Source: Desulfarculaceae bacterium
GTDB taxonomy: Bacteria > Desulfobacterota > Desulfarculia > Desulfarculales > Desulfarculaceae
Direction: 5' to 3'
DNA: 64,000 nucleotides
Assembly: GCA_021737645.1 (NCBI GenBank)
Contig: JAIPDO010000002.1
Coordinates: 1 to 64,000 of the forward strand
A model generated the notes under the pieces. That model saw only the letters and a list, made by a program, of their open reading frames with translations, ran no database searches and had not been told where the DNA came from. Shown here in pieces: positions 51,131 through 58,587 of this stretch (within the stretch, counting starts at the first letter, position 1; each line of letters starts with the position of its first letter). The position numbers and the translations under genes were made by a program.

Positions 51131-52357
51131 TCAGTGGGCCGCGAACAGCCCGGACACCGGCACCTTTTTCTCCCATACATGCAGCGAGATCTCCTGGCCG
51201 GGGCGCAGCTCGTAATAGAGCCTGACACGCAGGGTCAACTCCCGGCAGGGCTTGCCCAGGGGTATGACGAAGCTTTCACGTTTGGGCTTGAAGGGCTGCA
51301 AGGTGGTGTCGCGGACGATTCCCAGCTTGCGGTCCGGCCCCAAGACCATGACCGGTCCCAGGCTGTCGGTGCATTGGGGCATGAAGATGCGTTTTTCCTT
51401 GAACAGTTCTTTTCCGTTTTCATCCTTGGCGGCCGCTTCCAGGACCACCTGCGCCCGGGAGGGTCAACCGTCGGGGATGCGATGGCCCGCCCGGTTTTGG
51501 ATGGTGACCCCCACGACCACCTGGGGCGCGTCCTCTTTGTGCCCCGGATGGAAGGTGTAGGGCAGAGCCTCCACTTCCATGGGCAGGGCGGTGCGATAGA
51601 GCTTGGCCGTGGCCTCTTTGTCGCTGAAGTCGGGCGGGAAGGTGTGGTCGGTGCCGGTCATGTGGCAGTCCAGGCAGGTGCGAGCGCCGCCGTCGGCCAC
51701 GTAGCCGTGCAAATAGCTTCCATAGAGCGTGGCGCACTGCACCGGCGGGGTGAACTCGAAGTTGGGCCCCATGCCGTGGCACTGGCCGCAAAAGGCGGGC
51801 GAGGACATGAAAGAACTCTTGCGGACCGCCTTAATCTCCCCTTCGTGCTCCGGCAGGGCCTTGGGCCCATAGAGGACGCCGGGCTCGGGGCGGTGGTGTA
51901 CCACCGCCTTGTCCTGGTGGCACACCAAACAGCCGATGTTCAAGCGCCCCACCACCGCCTTGTCGTCCCGCCAGATCACCTCGGCCAGCTCCTGGGCCAC
52001 CTTGGGCCCGGCGCTCATCAGTTGGGGCAGGTGGCACTTGGCACAGGGGAAATTGGCCAGGGTGGCCTCCTGGGGCTTCTTCACCGCCAGCGGCCCCTTA
52101 CGCAGGTATTTGCTCATGAAGCTGAAGCCGTTCAGGCCCATGAGGGAGCGAGCGTGGTGGGAGCGCGACCACTGCTCATATATCTCGCCGTGGCACTCCT
52201 GGCAGCGCTTGGAGTCGTAGCGCTCCAGCAGCTCGTTCAGGCTCTGCGCCGGGGCTTGGCCGCCCCCGGCCCAAACCCACACCGCGCCGCAGAGCGACAA
52301 GGCCGCCACCGCCGCGCCCAAGAGCACCACTTTCTTATACAGGGCCAAACTGCACAT
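51131..52357 (-). CDS. Pentaheme cytochrome c, putative selenoprotein (Sec298)
   Basis: 408 aa if the in-frame TGA at 51464-51466 is read as selenocysteine. A signal anchor (about 7-30) is followed by five CXXCH heme sites (CQECH, CAKCH, CLVCH, CGQCH, CLDCH), so it acts outside the inner membrane. After NRAGHRIPDG the TGA is followed without any frame change by PSRAQVVLEAAAKDE and a coherent beta-rich C-terminal domain of ~110 residues. The only nearby downstream start (GTG 51448) has no ribosome site. CAGG-TGGT-CCTG forms a hairpin 13-24 nt after the TGA, where bacterial SECIS loops lie. ATG 52357 has GAGG 8 nt upstream. It is the last gene after ccdA, suggesting electron supply for metalloid or thiol chemistry. 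Confidence 0.8.
51440..51451 (-). promoter_or_regulatory. SECIS-like hairpin downstream of in-frame TGA
   Basis: CAGG-TGGT-CCTG, a 4-bp stem with a GU-containing loop, lies 13-24 nt after the TGA of the cytochrome gene; an outer GC/GC pair can extend it across a small internal loop. Position and loop fit bacterial SECIS elements. The stem is short. Confidence 0.5.
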
Positions 52358-52391: not shown

Positions 52392-53099
52392 TTATGTGCC
52401 GGTGAAAGGCGAAACGATGAAGTATGCTCCCAACAGGCCGATGCCCACTCCGGCCGCCCGCTTGAACCACAGGCTGCCTCGCTGGAAGGAGTTGTTTTCC
52501 AGCACGCCGCCCACCAGGGCGGTGGAGCTGCCCGCCAAGGCGATGGGCAGGGCGTGGCCCACGCCGAAAAGGGTGATCATAAGCAGCCCTGTGATGATGT
52601 CCTTTTGCACGGTGATGATGGCCAGGATGGGGGCGATAAAGCCGAAGGTGCACGATCCCGAGAGCACCCCATAGGCCAAGCCCAGGACAAACGCCCCGCT
52701 CATGCCCTTGACCTTGAGGCGGCCCATGAGGTTGCCGGACATGGAGAAGGCCTGCACCCCCAGCATGTCCAAGGCCACCCAGATCAGCACCGCGCCCACC
52801 AGGATGGTCCAGTAAGGCCCTACATCGCCCAACATCAGGCCCAGCCAGGCGCAGATCACCCCCACCAGGGCGATGGTGATAAACAGGCCGCCGGTGAAGG
52901 CCGCGGCGTAGAAGGCGGCGCTACGCGGCCGCACGCTCTGGTCCTGACCGGCCACGTAGGTGACGATCAAGGGGATGGAGGCCAAATGGCAGGGGCTCAG
53001 GGCCACGCTGACCATGCCCCACAAAAAGGCCCCGCCCAGGGCTATGAGGCTGCCCGAGGTTATCCAGTCGTTCAGAGTGATGAAAACCTGATCCAACAT
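52392..53099 (-). CDS. ccdA: CcdA-type thiol electron transporter
   Basis: 235-aa membrane protein of the CcdA/DsbD-beta family with six helices. The two redox cysteines are in SPCHLASIPLIV (helix 1) and SGSCTFGFIAP (helix 4). It carries reducing equivalents from cytoplasmic thioredoxin across the membrane to periplasmic thiol proteins. It lies between a periplasmic thioredoxin-like gene (26 bp upstream) and the pentaheme cytochrome, both plausible acceptors. Confidence 0.92.
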   Translation of the reverse strand: MLDQVFITLNDWITSGSLIALGGAFLWGMVSVALSPCHLASIPLIVTYVAGQDQSVRPRSAAFYAAAFTGGLFITIALVGVICAWLGLMLGDVGPYWTILVGAVLIWVALDMLGVQAFSMSGNLMGRLKVKGMSGAFVLGLAYGVLSGSCTFGFIAPILAIITVQKDIITGLLMITLFGVGHALPIALAGSSTALVGGVLENNSFQRGSLWFKRAAGVGIGLLGAYFIVSPFTGT

Positions 53100-53125: not shown

Positions 53126-53533
53126 CTACTTGGCGGGCGCCTTGGGTTTCTCCACGCCCAGCTTGGTCAACACCAGTTCGATGTTTTCCTTGCTCAAGAA
53201 GCCCTCGTGGCGAAAGGCCTCGCGTCCTTGCTTGTCATAGAAAACCTGGGTGGGGATGGCCCGGATGCCGTACTGGGCGGCCAGGCTGCGGTCTTTCCAG
53301 ACGTCCAGGAACACTATGGCCGCCTTGCCCTTGTACTCGATTTTCAGCTCATCCAGGATTGGGGCCATCATCCGGCAGGGGATACACTTGTCTGCCCCCA
53401 GGTCCACCAGGGTGACCATGCCCTTGACCGGTAACTCCTCGGTGGCCGAGGCCGGGCCGGGGGCCGCAGCCAGCAGGGCCAGGGACAGGGCCAGGGCCAG
53501 CACCATAAACAGCGTTGAGCGGAATAGTTTCAT
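53126..53533 (-). CDS. Periplasmic thioredoxin-like protein
   Basis: 135 aa with a signal peptide (about 1-27, ending PASATE) and a thioredoxin domain with the active site ADKCIPCRMMAPILDEL and the cis-Pro motif RAIPTQVFYD. Exported thioredoxins of this kind receive electrons from CcdA, encoded next. ATG 53533 gives the clean signal peptide. Candidate clients are the selenocysteine cytochrome or the BFD-like protein; this is inferred only from the operon. Confidence 0.9.
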   Translation of the reverse strand: MKLFRSTLFMVLALALSLALLAAAPGPASATEELPVKGMVTLVDLGADKCIPCRMMAPILDELKIEYKGKAAIVFLDVWKDRSLAAQYGIRAIPTQVFYDKQGREAFRHEGFLSKENIELVLTKLGVEKPKAPAK

Positions 53534-53561
53534 GTTAAGCAGAACCTTCTTAGGTAAAGGG

Positions 53562-54653
53562 TTAAGGCTTGCAATTGACGTGGCAAACCCCGGTGGGGCC
53601 TTCCACAGCATAGGGGAAGTACTTGCGCTTGAAGAAAAGGGCCACGTTGACCAGGCCTATAAGAACCGGCACCTCCACCAAGGGGCCGATCACCGCGGCA
53701 AAGGCCTGGCCGCTGTCGATGCCGAACACGGCCACGGCCACGGCGATGGCCAGCTCGAAGTTGTTGGAGGCTGCGGTGAAGGACAGGGTGGTCGCCTGCT
53801 CGTAGGTGGCCTTGGCTTTTAGCGACAGCCAGAAGCTTACCAAAAACATCACCACAAAGTAGATGCACAAGGGTATGGCCACCCGCACCACGTCAAAAGG
53901 CAGGGCCACGATGTATTCGCCCTTGAGGCTGAACATCACCAGGATGGTGAACAGCAGGGCGATGAGGGTTATGGGGCTGATCTTGGGGATGAAGACTTCC
54001 TCATACCACTGACGGCCCTTGAGCTTAAGCCCCACCACCCGGCTGATGATCCCGGCAATGAAGGGTATGCCCAGATAGATGAACACGCTCTGGGCGATCT
54101 GGCCCATGGACACCTGCACGGCCATTCCCTCCATGCCTAGCCACTGGGGCAGCACGGTGATGAAGAACCAGGCGTAGAGGCTAAAGAACAGCACCTGGAA
54201 GATGCTGTTGAAGGCCACCAGCCCGGCGCAGTATTCCCGGTCGCCCCGGGCCAAGTCGTTCCACACGATGACCATGGCGATGCAGCGGGCCAGGCCGATG
54301 AGGATCAACCCCACCATGTAGGCGTGCTGCCCGGAGAGAAAGGTGACCGCCAGGGCGAACATGAGCACCGGCCCGATGACCCAGTTCTGCACCAACGACA
54401 GCACCAGCACCCGCACGTTCTTGAACACCTGGCCCAGGTCCTCGTAGCGCACCTTGGCCAAAGGCGGGTACATCATCAGTATCAGGCCGATGGCGATGGG
54501 CAGGTTGGTGGTGCCCACGGAAAAGTGGTCCATGACCTGACGCACGCCGGGGAAGAAATAACCCCAGCCCACGCCCACGGCCATAGCCAGAAAAATCCAC
54601 AGGGTGAGGAAGCGGTCCAGAAAAGAGAGCTTTTTAACCTCAGTGGGGGTCAT
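53562..54653 (-). CDS. acr3: ACR3-type arsenite efflux transporter
   Basis: 363-aa, ten-helix arsenite exporter. The essential Cys lies in [19 protein letters not shown], the ACR3 signature, and [21 protein letters not shown] carries the conserved Asn-Glu helix. A C-terminal tail ending GVCHVNCKP adds two cysteines not needed in the family and may touch arsenite or thiol partners. It follows arsC by 23 bp. Confidence 0.95.
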
Positions 54654-54676: not shown

Positions 54677-55117
54677 TCAGTCTTGCAGGCTCTGGGGTAG
54701 GCCTTCAACCATTGCCTTGATCTCGTCGCGCACCCGGCGGTAGGGGGCCAGGGCCTGGTCTTCGTCGGCCGCGCCCTGGGCCAACAGAGGCGGGTCGTCG
54801 AAGCCGCGATGCGCCCGCGTAACCGGGCCGGGGAAAAAGGGGCAGGCCTCGTTGGCGTTGTCGCACAGGGTCACCACCCAGTCCCAGTCCTGGCCGATGA
54901 AAGGGTCCACGACCTTGGACTTTTGGCCCGCGATGTCCACCCCGGCCTCGGACATTACCTTGATTGCACGAGGGTCCACCCGACCGGGGGCCACCCCGGC
55001 GCTATGGGCCTCGTACTCCTCGCCGCGCAGGGCGTTGGTGAAGCCCTCGGCCATCTGGCTGCGGCAGGAATTTCCTGTGCATAGATAGAGGATGCGTTTT
55101 TTGGGCGTATCGCTCAT
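54677..55117 (-). CDS. arsC: Arsenate reductase, LMW-phosphatase/thioredoxin-coupled type
   Basis: 146-aa reductase of arsenate to arsenite. The P-loop [13 protein letters not shown] holds the nucleophilic Cys, and [16 protein letters not shown] supplies the two redox cysteines that relay to thioredoxin, as in Staphylococcus pI258 ArsC. Product arsenite would leave by ACR3, encoded next. The gap to the upstream BFD-like gene is 40 bp if its TGA is read through. Confidence 0.95.
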
Positions 55118-55157: not shown

Positions 55158-55424
55158 TCAGTCCAACCCAGCGATCAAGGTCCCGGTGCCTTCCCCCTGC
55201 CCGAGGAGGATGTTGATCTCCCGCGAGCATCACCGCCGCCGGGGGCTGAGTTCCTTGCAGCGGCTCACACGGCAGGCGCCGGTGGCCCTTTTGATGTCTT
55301 CCAGGGTCTTGGCCCCGGCCCGCATGGCCGCGAGGATATCCCCCTTGCTCACCTGGGAGCAATAGCAGACCAGTGCCTCCGGCGGGGCGGTCAATATGTC
55401 GGCTGAAAACTTCAGTGGCATCAT
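55158..55424 (-). CDS. BFD-like [2Fe-2S] protein, putative selenoprotein (Sec65)
   Basis: 88 aa if the TGA at 55230-55232 is read as selenocysteine. The N-terminal 64 residues have the BFD-like motif VCYCSQVSKGDI...GAKTLEDIKRATGAC...CKELSP. In relatives the chain continues with a Cys-Cys pair followed by an I-x-x-LL helix; here the same position reads RRR-TGA-C-SREINILL, so Sec replaces the first Cys and the helix follows in frame, with a stop at 55158. A stop at 55230 would remove this conserved end. A GGAG/CTCC hairpin after the TGA is a weak SECIS candidate. It begins 2 bp after the DGC-domain gene. Likely a small electron carrier; its partner is unknown. Confidence 0.72.
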
Positions 55425-55426
55425 AC

Positions 55427-55843
55427 CTAGCCGCGGCAGCCGTAGGCACCGCCCGGTGCAGCCATGCGCAGGGGGGATCGGGCGCCGCGCACCAGATCCT
55501 TTACCTGGTCTACTTGTTCGCGCTTGAGGTTCAGGTCCTTGTTCTTGGCGATGCCCTGTTGGGTCAGCACCACATAGCCCCTGAGAGGCAAACCGGCCTC
55601 CTGAATGATGGCCTTGGCGCAGCCTTTTTCGCAGCCGTCCAAGACCACCAACTCCGGCGCGTCCTTCACCGCTTGGATGAAGCCTTGCAACCTGCCCCCG
55701 ACCCCGGCCAGGCAAAACATCTTGCCAAACCCCTCCTGGGTCAGTTCCACGCAGGCCTGGTTGGTCAACTGGCCCACGTTGGAAGCTCCCGAACAGGCCA
55801 ACAACATAGCCTGCCCCCCATTAGTGCAACAACTATCCGCCAT
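55427..55843 (-). CDS. DGC-domain putative zinc-binding protein
   Basis: 138 aa with cysteines at ADSCCTNGG, LACSGASNVGQL, FCLAGVGG and the name-giving DGCEKGCAKAI, the pattern of the DGC domain family of presumed metal-binding proteins. A C-terminal tail ends YGCRG. Such proteins often sit beside ArsP-type permeases and thioredoxins. ATG 55843 is used; GTG codons at 55858 could add five residues. Role unknown; a metal or metalloid carrier is inferred. Confidence 0.85.
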   Translation of the reverse strand: MADSCCTNGGQAMLLACSGASNVGQLTNQACVELTQEGFGKMFCLAGVGGRLQGFIQAVKDAPELVVLDGCEKGCAKAIIQEAGLPLRGYVVLTQQGIAKNKDLNLKREQVDQVKDLVRGARSPLRMAAPGGAYGCRG

Positions 55844-55873
55844 TTTATAAACCACCACTCATATAGATATAGT

Positions 55874-56107
55874 TTAATCGGCCAGCCAGGATTTGACCTG
55901 GTCCTTGCTGGGCACCTTGCCCACCAGCTTGACCTGGCCGTCCACCACCACCGCCGGAGTGCCCAGCACGCCGTAGGCGGCGATGTCCATCATGCCGGTG
56001 ACCTTTTCCACCTCAGCCTCCACTCCGGCCTCGGCCACCGCCTCCTTGACCACTTCCTCGGTTTTCTTGCACTTGGCGCAACCGGGACCCAACACCTTGA
56101 TTTCCAT
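55874..56107 (-). CDS. Small thioredoxin/glutaredoxin-like protein (TIGR00412 type)
   Basis: 77-aa redox-active disulfide protein. The active site GPGCAKCKKTEE is CxxC, and GVLGTPAVVVDGQV holds the cis-Pro. ATG 56107 with GGAG 9 nt upstream is better than ATG 56116, which would touch its Shine-Dalgarno box. Family members are regularly found with PF03773 permeases and ArsR regulators, as here, and probably supply cytoplasmic reductant for the cluster. Confidence 0.9.
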   Translation of the reverse strand: MEIKVLGPGCAKCKKTEEVVKEAVAEAGVEAEVEKVTGMMDIAAYGVLGTPAVVVDGQVKLVGKVPSKDQVKSWLAD

Positions 56108-56185
56108 GTCTACCATCTCCGTGGGTTTTTTGGATGATTTTTTGGTTACAAAGCAAACCGGCGCACCCGCAAGGGCCTTGCCCGG

Positions 56186-57376
56186 CTATTCCGCCACCTC
56201 CAGGGCCAATTCGTCCTTCTGGATGATATTGTGCCGGATCAGAGCAAAGCTAAGCAGCCAGCTCATAAAAAGGCAACCGCCGTAAATCAGGAACAGCCCG
56301 CTGAAGCCTTCGTGCTGGATCACCACTCCACCAAGAGCAGTGCCCAGGCCGCCGCCGCCCATGAAGCAGAAGGCCACCAGAGACATGGCCGCGCCGCGCG
56401 CCTTCATGGCGAACTCGGTGGCCCTGGTGAGCAGGGTGGAGTGGGTGAAGATGAAGCCGAAGCCCAGCAGGGCGATTCCGGCAATGAGCCAGCCCAGGCT
56501 GGCCCCCAGGTAGGCGAAGGCCAGCTCGGCGACCACCGCCGCCAACAGGCCCATGCTCAAGATGCCGCGCGGGCTCATGGCCTGGGACAGCTTGCCGCTG
56601 AGCTTGCCGCCGATCACCGTGGCCAGGCCGAAAGCGGTCATTATCAGGCCAATTTGCAGGTAGTTGTAGTGGTAGGTCTGGGAAATGTAGGCCCCCAGAT
56701 AGGAGAAGCTGCCGATGATGAACACGCCTTCCAAGAGCACCAGGATGTAGGTGTAGAGGCTGCGGGTATGGGCCAGCAGCTTGGCGTAGGGGGCCAGGAA
56801 CTTGGCCTGGGGGTTCTTGCTGGCCGGTATGGACTTATAGGCCTTGATGAGCGCCAGGGTGGGGATCACCGACAGCACGGCGTACAGGAGAAACACTCCC
56901 CGCCAGCTGAGGAAGTAAGCGGTCACCCCGCCGATGGCCATGCTGAGCCCCTGGCCCAAAAACGAGATGCCCATGAAAGAGCCGATGGCCCCCTGGCGCT
57001 TTTCTATGGGGAACAGGTCGCCGATCATGGCCAGTGATATGGGCATCACCGAGGCCGCGAACATGCCGGTCAGCGCACGGTACAGGGCCAAGTCCGGCAG
57101 CCCCAGGCCCAAGGCGCACAGGCCGGTGGCCAGGGTGAACAGAATCATGGAAAAAGTTATTACCTGCTTCTTGCCGAAGCGGTCGGCCAGGGGCCCGAAC
57201 ACCAGCTGGAAGAGGCCGAAGGGCACCATGTAGGCGGAGATCAACAGCCCCGCCCTGGTGATGTCGATGTGCAGGTTTTCGGCGATGGCAGGCAGGATGG
57301 GCGAAACCACCCAGTTGTCGGCCATGACCACGAAACCGGCCATTCCCAGTAATGCCACTATGTTTTTGTTTTGCAT
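56186..57376 (-). CDS. MFS transporter of the ars-like cluster
   Basis: 396-aa, 12-helix major facilitator with the loop motif GPLADRFGKKQVITFSM and an N-terminus VALLGMAGFVVMADNWVVSPILP. The frame stays open upstream to 58612, but that is out of frame with the real permease gene. ATG 57376 gives a normal N-terminus. It lies between the ArsP-type permease and the small thioredoxin, so it may export a metalloid conjugate; the substrate is not shown by sequence. Confidence 0.87.
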   Translation of the reverse strand: MQNKNIVALLGMAGFVVMADNWVVSPILPAIAENLHIDITRAGLLISAYMVPFGLFQLVFGPLADRFGKKQVITFSMILFTLATGLCALGLGLPDLALYRALTGMFAASVMPISLAMIGDLFPIEKRQGAIGSFMGISFLGQGLSMAIGGVTAYFLSWRGVFLLYAVLSVIPTLALIKAYKSIPASKNPQAKFLAPYAKLLAHTRSLYTYILVLLEGVFIIGSFSYLGAYISQTYHYNYLQIGLIMTAFGLATVIGGKLSGKLSQAMSPRGILSMGLLAAVVAELAFAYLGASLGWLIAGIALLGFGFIFTHSTLLTRATEFAMKARGAAMSLVAFCFMGGGGLGTALGGVVIQHEGFSGLFLIYGGCLFMSWLLSFALIRHNIIQKDELALEVAE

Positions 57377-57414: not shown

Positions 57415-58587
57415 TCAGGCCAAAAACGACCCGTATATAAGACCCGCGATGGTGGACATCACCACGATGATGCCGCTGAACACCGCGGTCTTTTTCCAAC
57501 CCATCACCCCGCCGATCACCAACATGTTGGGCAGGCTGAGCGCCGGTCCGGCCAAGAGCAGGGCCAGGGCCGGGCCCTTGCCCATGCCCGCGCCCAGGAG
57601 ACCCTGCAAGATGGGGATCTCGGTGAGGGTGGCGAAGTACATCAAAGCCCCGGCCACCGAGGCGAACAGGTTGGCCCCCAGGGAGTTGCCGCCCAGGGAG
57701 GAACTGACCCATTCGTCGGGGATAAGGGCGGGATGCCCCGGACGGCCCAGCATGAACCCGGCCACCAGGACCCCGGCCCCCAGCAGAGGCAGTATCTGCT
57801 TCATGAAGCCCCAGGTGGACTCCACCCATTCGACCCGCTCCTCCTTGGTGAACCAGGCCCTCAGCAGGAACACCAGGGCCACCAGAAGCCCGGCGGTGAT
57901 CCACCACTTGAGCCCGAAGATCAGCGCCCAAAGGCCCTGGACGCCTTCGGCCGGGCGGGCCCAGGCGGCGAAGATGAGGATGAGCACCAGGGTGAGCATG
58001 AACAGCGATTCCTGGCCCAGGGAACGGCCGCTGGCCTCGTCCTCGGGCAGGTAGACCTGCCCGGCGGCGCGGGCCGCGTCGTCCTTGCGGAATATCAGGG
58101 CCATAAGAAGGCCGGTGATCACCGCGAACACCACCGCCCCTATGGCCCGGGCCAGACCCAGCTCCCAGCCCAGGATGCGGGCGGTGAGCACGATGGCCAG
58201 CACGTTGATGGCCGGGCCGGAGTAGAGAAAGGCCGTGGCCGGGCCGATGCCCGCGCCCCGGGAGTAGATGCCCGCGAACAACGGCAGCACCGTGCAGGAG
58301 CAAACCGCCAGCACCGCGCCGGAAACCGAGGCCACCGAATAGGACAGGAACTTCTTGGCCTGAGCCCCGAAGTACTTGAGCACTGCGGCCTGGCTGACGA
58401 ACACCGAGATGGCCCCGGCGATGAAAAAGGCCGGGATCAGGCAGGTGAGCACGTGCTCGCGCGCGTACTCCCGAAGCATCATGAAGGCTTCCAGACCCGA
58501 GCGCCGGATGGGCTCGCTGTTCCAGGGCACGAAATAGGCCGCCGCGAACAGGGCCACTATGATCAGGAGCTTGTATCGTTCTTTCAT
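57415..58587 (-). CDS. PF03773 permease (ArsP-type)
   Basis: 390-aa membrane protein with about eight to ten helices. The signature [34 protein letters not shown] holds the Cys pair used by ArsP to bind trivalent organoarsenicals, and the second half repeats the pattern ([40 protein letters not shown]). Export of methylarsenite or another soft metalloid is likely by family. An 18-bp inverted repeat, shared with the arsR promoter, lies 17 bp before its ATG. Confidence 0.9.

Follow-up and report, generated by a model that had tools for sequence, protein, structure and literature searches.

The cytochrome gene and its in-frame TGA

The window analysed here (64,000 nucleotides of a contig from a Desulfarculaceae bacterium) carries on its reverse strand a pentaheme cytochrome c gene that, as the initial annotation had claimed, is broken solely by an in-frame TGA (51466-51464), with one shared reading frame on both sides (GHRIPDG-U-PSRAQVVLE, then about 110 residues). 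The features of the gene are:

51131..52357 (-), ExtKL/MccSep-type pentaheme cytochrome c and very probable selenoprotein, 408 aa, Sec298 (NCBIfam NF040886)
52357-52355 (-), start codon ATG; 51133-51131 (-), final stop TGA
52190..52204 (-), heme motif 1, CQECH
52031..52045 (-), heme motif 2, CAKCH
51917..51931 (-), heme motif 3, CLVCH
51776..51790 (-), heme motif 4, CGQCH
51662..51676 (-), heme motif 5, CLDCH
51158..51580 (-), approximate limits of a C-terminal beta-sandwich domain with 7 predicted strands (AlphaFold2 model)
51464..51466 (-), in-frame TGA at residue 298, almost certainly decoded as selenocysteine (TGA, n=53; TGT, n=4; PDB MccSep alignment)
51428..51449 (-), SECIS-like hairpin GGUGGUCCU-GGA-AG(C)GGCCGCC, 14-35 nt after the TGA, with the apical loop GGA at 51440-51438 and a bulged base at 51435

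All five CXXCH motifs lie N-terminal to the Sec site, as is characteristic of the family, and the N-terminus is signal peptide-like; the protein is a secreted cytochrome. Identity to close relatives was 46-86% across matches spanning the TGA, showing that conservation of the protein crosses the stop.

An AlphaFold2 model built from 12 relatives (mean pLDDT 64.8, pTM 0.62) placed two strands of the predicted beta-sandwich before the Sec residue and five after it, so that the UGA would fall inside the C-terminal domain, most of which would be missing without read-through. The pLDDT was high on most of these strands and low at residues 293-295 and 325-345, and the loop around Sec was of low confidence. 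The heme part was poorly modelled, and for this reason Foldseek searches with the model returned generic beta-sandwich matches only (e.g. ApaG).

Family assignment and previously described members

Judged by its sequence, the cytochrome belongs to the ExtKL/MccSep family: it matched NCBIfam NF040886 (ExtKL multiheme (seleno)protein) with 435 bits (E 2e-130; cut-off 250 bits). Whether such a selenoprotein family had been described was left as a question in the initial annotation, and it is answered in the affirmative by NF040886 itself, by PMC1914089 and by the MccSep structures (PDB 9WT8-9WTC). The Geobacter pair GSU2937 and GSU2936 was first put forward as a selenoprotein by Fujita et al. 2007 (PMC1914089), who had no non-Sec homologues, found no SECIS and kept a conserved operon as the alternative. 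The name ExtKL dates from 2018 (PMC5877670), when its gene cluster was tied to selenite and tellurite reduction; that reduction was impaired on loss of ExtI, and ExtKL was proposed as a participating selenoprotein. The extHIJKL cluster is also described in PMC6148476, and a 2026 review (PMC13188914) enters ExtKL as predicted, with high confidence.

Entries 9WT8, 9WTA and 9WTB, together with the U325A forms 9WT9 and 9WTC, are deposited as "multiheme cytochrome c selenoprotein MccSep". Their alignment with the window's protein covers residues 13-365 (E about 1e-60), and the X (unknown residue) or Ala of the MccSep chains falls opposite Sec298, Sec325 thus occupying the Sec298 column. Sec incorporation is indicated by these entries for a relative from a different organism.

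Codon usage at the Sec site among homologues

Sixty related genomes and the organism's own yielded 12 high-scoring matches, namely the query and 11 relatives, and each of these contained exactly one in-frame TGA; the other matches were weak and fell on other cytochromes. When NF040886 was run against 395 genomes of the phylum, 39 proved to have members above the cut-off. When the codon at the site, the last position of the family's GH-x-x-PDG-[U/C] motif, was read directly, TGA was present in 53 distinct ExtKL members (this gene counted) that span Thermodesulfobacteriota and Nitrospirota (L034, L035), while four homologues (L081, L082b, L083 and L084) possessed TGT (Cys) and two had other residues, with PDS replacing PDG. 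Neither TAA nor TAG was ever seen there, TGA being the only type of stop. Homologues ending at this position, or a different base call, would have told against the initial annotation; the 53 TGA members run on past the site, and conservation of the TGA across phyla means that 51464-51466 was not miscalled.

The genomes of all four Cys copies also contain a TGA (Sec) paralogue. One of these copies (L084, G337:C11), from the same genome as the Sec-type L090, has an in-frame TAA in its heme region, the probable mark of a copy in decay or of an error. A distant relative (L093, G093:C287:3781-4848) scored 173 bits, under the ExtKL cut-off, and has a TGA at the equivalent place (PHRVPDS-U-PWTS).

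Selenocysteine machinery

The sel genes that selenocysteine decoding calls for were all found in the genome, namely tRNA-Sec (71.8 bits, cut-off 47), SelA (615 bits), SelB (395 bits) and SelD (378 bits). The SelD gene (L047, G000:C67:10848-11768) has an in-frame TGA of its own (U-A-A-K, at the UxxK position), as in Sec-type SelD.

A candidate SECIS element downstream of the TGA

The SECIS stem proposed in the initial annotation (CAGG-TGGT-CCTG) did not hold up, as 69.7% of its cells were paired across 52 sequences compared with 69.2% in shuffles. A conserved hairpin, which overlaps that stem but differs from it, lies 14-35 nt after the TGA and is a candidate SECIS on comparative grounds. Its consensus, GGUGGUCCU-GGA-AG-x-GACCGCC, paired in 85.3% against 81.8% in shuffles, with 13 doubly changed cells (4.4 expected) and a covariation score of 0.172 (0.123 in shuffles); five of its nine pairs showed compensatory changes on both sides. 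Of 500 shuffles, none equalled it in covariation score, in paired cells or in doubly changed cells, and the signal fell sharply when the hairpin was slid by one column. The window's own copy retains this hairpin, with one U-A to U-G change and a C replacing the bulged U.

This shuffle control leaves relatedness in, and hence two further tests, of codon constraint and of folding energy, were added. Codons +6 to +12 after the TGA ranked first among 303 seven-codon windows for synonymous constraint: where two TGA members agreed in the amino acid, 0.72 of the codons were identical here compared with a gene mean of 0.43, and the Cys members mostly use other codons. When codons +5 to +12 were compared with synonymous shuffles that used the codons of the gene concerned, the mean folding energy of the 53 TGA members was -8.9 kcal/mol against -4.3 kcal/mol for the shuffles, and that of the four Cys members was -2.2 against -2.1 kcal/mol; the folding excess at the hairpin was the most extreme of 45 windows along the gene.

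The case for the SECIS is comparative, because the window's region taken singly folded no better than shuffles (z +1.05, not significant). Many ExtKL members escaped a simple hairpin rule modelled on bSECISearch, owing to the bulge in the conserved hairpin. RNAalifold returned no consensus structure for the full set, or for the set without five members that carry an alternative hairpin, and Rfam gave no match. In those five members (L032, L033, L036, L053 and L058) the alternative hairpin, ACCGAC-UGGUUCU-GUCGGU, lies at nearly the same distance after the TGA, which suggests a SECIS that has switched inside one family.

Reading of the UGA codon

Taken together, the 53 TGA members, the four Cys homologues, the sel genes and the MccSep alignment bear out the selenocysteine reading of the initial annotation, and we put the probability that ExtKL is a selenocysteine-containing five-heme cytochrome, with UGA codon 298 specifying Sec, at about 0.96. 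SelB and Sec-tRNA would decode this UGA, directed by the hairpin 14-35 nt downstream; which SECIS a SelB recognises depends on the lineage. The alternative kept by Fujita et al., in which the TGA is a true stop and ExtK and ExtL are two proteins of a conserved two-gene operon, fits the split published annotation of Geobacter (GSU2937, GSU2936) and the failure of those authors to find a SECIS (PMC1914089); it is nonetheless highly improbable, since the TGT homologues are one continuous protein, the predicted beta-sandwich runs across the TGA, the site holds TGA alone and never TAA or TAG, a conserved hairpin follows it, and MccSep in the PDB is a single chain with Sec at the site. Still less probable is that UGA is read as Trp or Cys, through near-cognate read-through or a recoded tRNA: the frame would indeed be open under such a code, yet the genome holds the full Sec machinery with a Sec-type SelD, the alternation at the site is with Cys rather than Trp, and the solved relative MccSep contains Sec. 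A pseudogene or sequencing error, for which the stop codon itself speaks and nothing more, is the most remote of these explanations and is already refuted by conservation, given that 53 distinct members from two phyla share this TGA with the protein conserved on both sides.

The surrounding arsenic operon

Upstream of ExtKL, on the same strand, lie the genes of an arsenic (ars) operon:

52392..53099 (-), CcdA/DsbD-type transmembrane electron-transfer protein (PF02683)
53126..53611 (-), thioredoxin-like protein, probably exported (PF00085)
53562..54653 (-), ACR3 arsenite efflux transporter (TIGR00832, 468 bits, over the cut-off)
54677..55117 (-), ArsC-like thioredoxin-type arsenate reductase (TIGR02691, 137 bits, below the cut-off of 174)
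55158..55424 (-), second selenoprotein, a BFD-like 2Fe-2S protein, with its TGA at 55232-55230 (PF04324)
55427..55858 (-), DGC-domain protein (PF08859)
55874..56116 (-), ArsE/MTH895-type small thioredoxin (TIGR00412, 105.6 bits, over the cut-off)
56186..57370 (-), MFS transporter (PF07690)
57418..58587 (-), ArsP-type permease (PF03773, 254 bits)

Export of the thioredoxin-like protein is suggested by its hydrophobic N-terminus. The second in-frame TGA of the operon lies in the BFD-like 2Fe-2S protein (CKELSPRRR-U-CSREI) and is kept in three further species (L026/L099, L030/L096 and L097); the protein matched NF045877 only partially, below the cut-off, and resembles a known type of selenoprotein.

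The ars gene set is kept in Desulfarculaceae relatives, and CcdA adjoins ExtKL in most of the ars-linked relatives; Desulfarculus baarsii is an example of a cultured relative that has this operon. In other families (L118, L121, L124, L127 and L135) parts of the set, namely ACR3 or ArsP and mostly CcdA and thioredoxin as well, likewise lie next to ExtKL. Ars genes were absent within 6-9 kb of ExtKL in the Desulfuromonas-type and Nitrospirota members examined; overall, 15 of the 51 scored members were ars-linked, the remaining 36 having no ars genes within 6-9 kb. Linkage, scored in 51 of the 59 proteins of a maximum-likelihood tree, required 4 changes there compared with 9-15 in the ten shuffles listed. 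We read this pattern as one lineage linked to ars genes, in which the linkage was sometimes lost, plus at least one independent case (L067).

Possible function and significance

The sequence itself shows the Sec coding, the number of hemes and the operon. In a selenocysteine-containing ExtKL, the periplasmic selenolate, located after the heme region in the protein sequence, could bind or reduce chalcogen or metalloid species, the hemes would carry electrons to or from the Sec-bound species, and CcdA with thioredoxin, as a thiol-reducing branch, could keep the Sec reduced. The operon links ExtKL to arsenic export (ACR3, ArsP) in the Desulfarculaceae lineage. We regard a metalloid role for ExtKL as evenly balanced. 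A role specific to arsenic is doubtful, the argument for it being one of guilt by association; equally tentative is the proposal that the ars-linked clade is a dedicated arsenic-detoxification enzyme, a Sec-heme oxidoreductase of the periplasm that would act on the arsenic species which ACR3 and ArsP export and would be recharged via CcdA and a periplasmic thioredoxin. There is roughly an even chance that the Sec cytochrome instead serves general periplasmic electron transfer, or selenite and tellurite reduction as proposed for Geobacter, its location among ars genes being incidental or indirect. The 36 of 51 members without ars genes within 6-9 kb, and the data on the Geobacter ext cluster (PMC5877670, PMC6148476), are in keeping with such a role, whereas the clustering of ars linkage on the tree (4 changes, as opposed to 9-15 in the ten shuffles listed), its recurrence in several families and the repeated adjacency of CcdA and thioredoxin argue against it.

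As a selenoprotein ExtKL is already on record, and structures of a relative have been solved; our analysis adds a candidate SECIS, Cys homologues and a recurrent link to arsenic-resistance operons. The candidate SECIS and the Cys homologues answer the doubts of Fujita et al. 2007, who had neither a SECIS nor non-Sec homologues. Less ordinary is the position of ExtKL inside an arsenic-detoxification operon in Desulfarculaceae and some other lineages, and this linkage suggests a testable substrate class for the family. A dedicated enzyme, if true, would be a Sec-dependent arsenic-resistance branch, none having been described in the literature searched.

Comparison with known systems

The second selenoprotein of the operon is like form 1 (GxUC) of the (2Fe-2S)-binding CopZ-family selenoproteins (PMC13188914) in having R-x-R-U-C after a BFD-like 2Fe-2S domain, and unlike it in being short and located in an ars operon. 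MccSep, at 450 residues compared with 408 for the window's ExtKL, has a longer N-terminal region plus inserts. Geobacter ExtKL (GSU2937-GSU2936) has in common with the window's protein its five hemes, a hydrophobic N-terminus, the GH-x-x-PDG-U motif and a C-terminal domain beyond the UGA. The ext gene cluster typical of Geobacter, which lies outside the family definition, was not found at the window's ExtKL locus: the Geobacter gene belongs to extHIJKLMNOPQS, a cluster that also encodes a rhodanese, a porin and further cytochromes (PMC5877670), whereas the window's ExtKL shares an arsenic operon with CcdA and thioredoxin.
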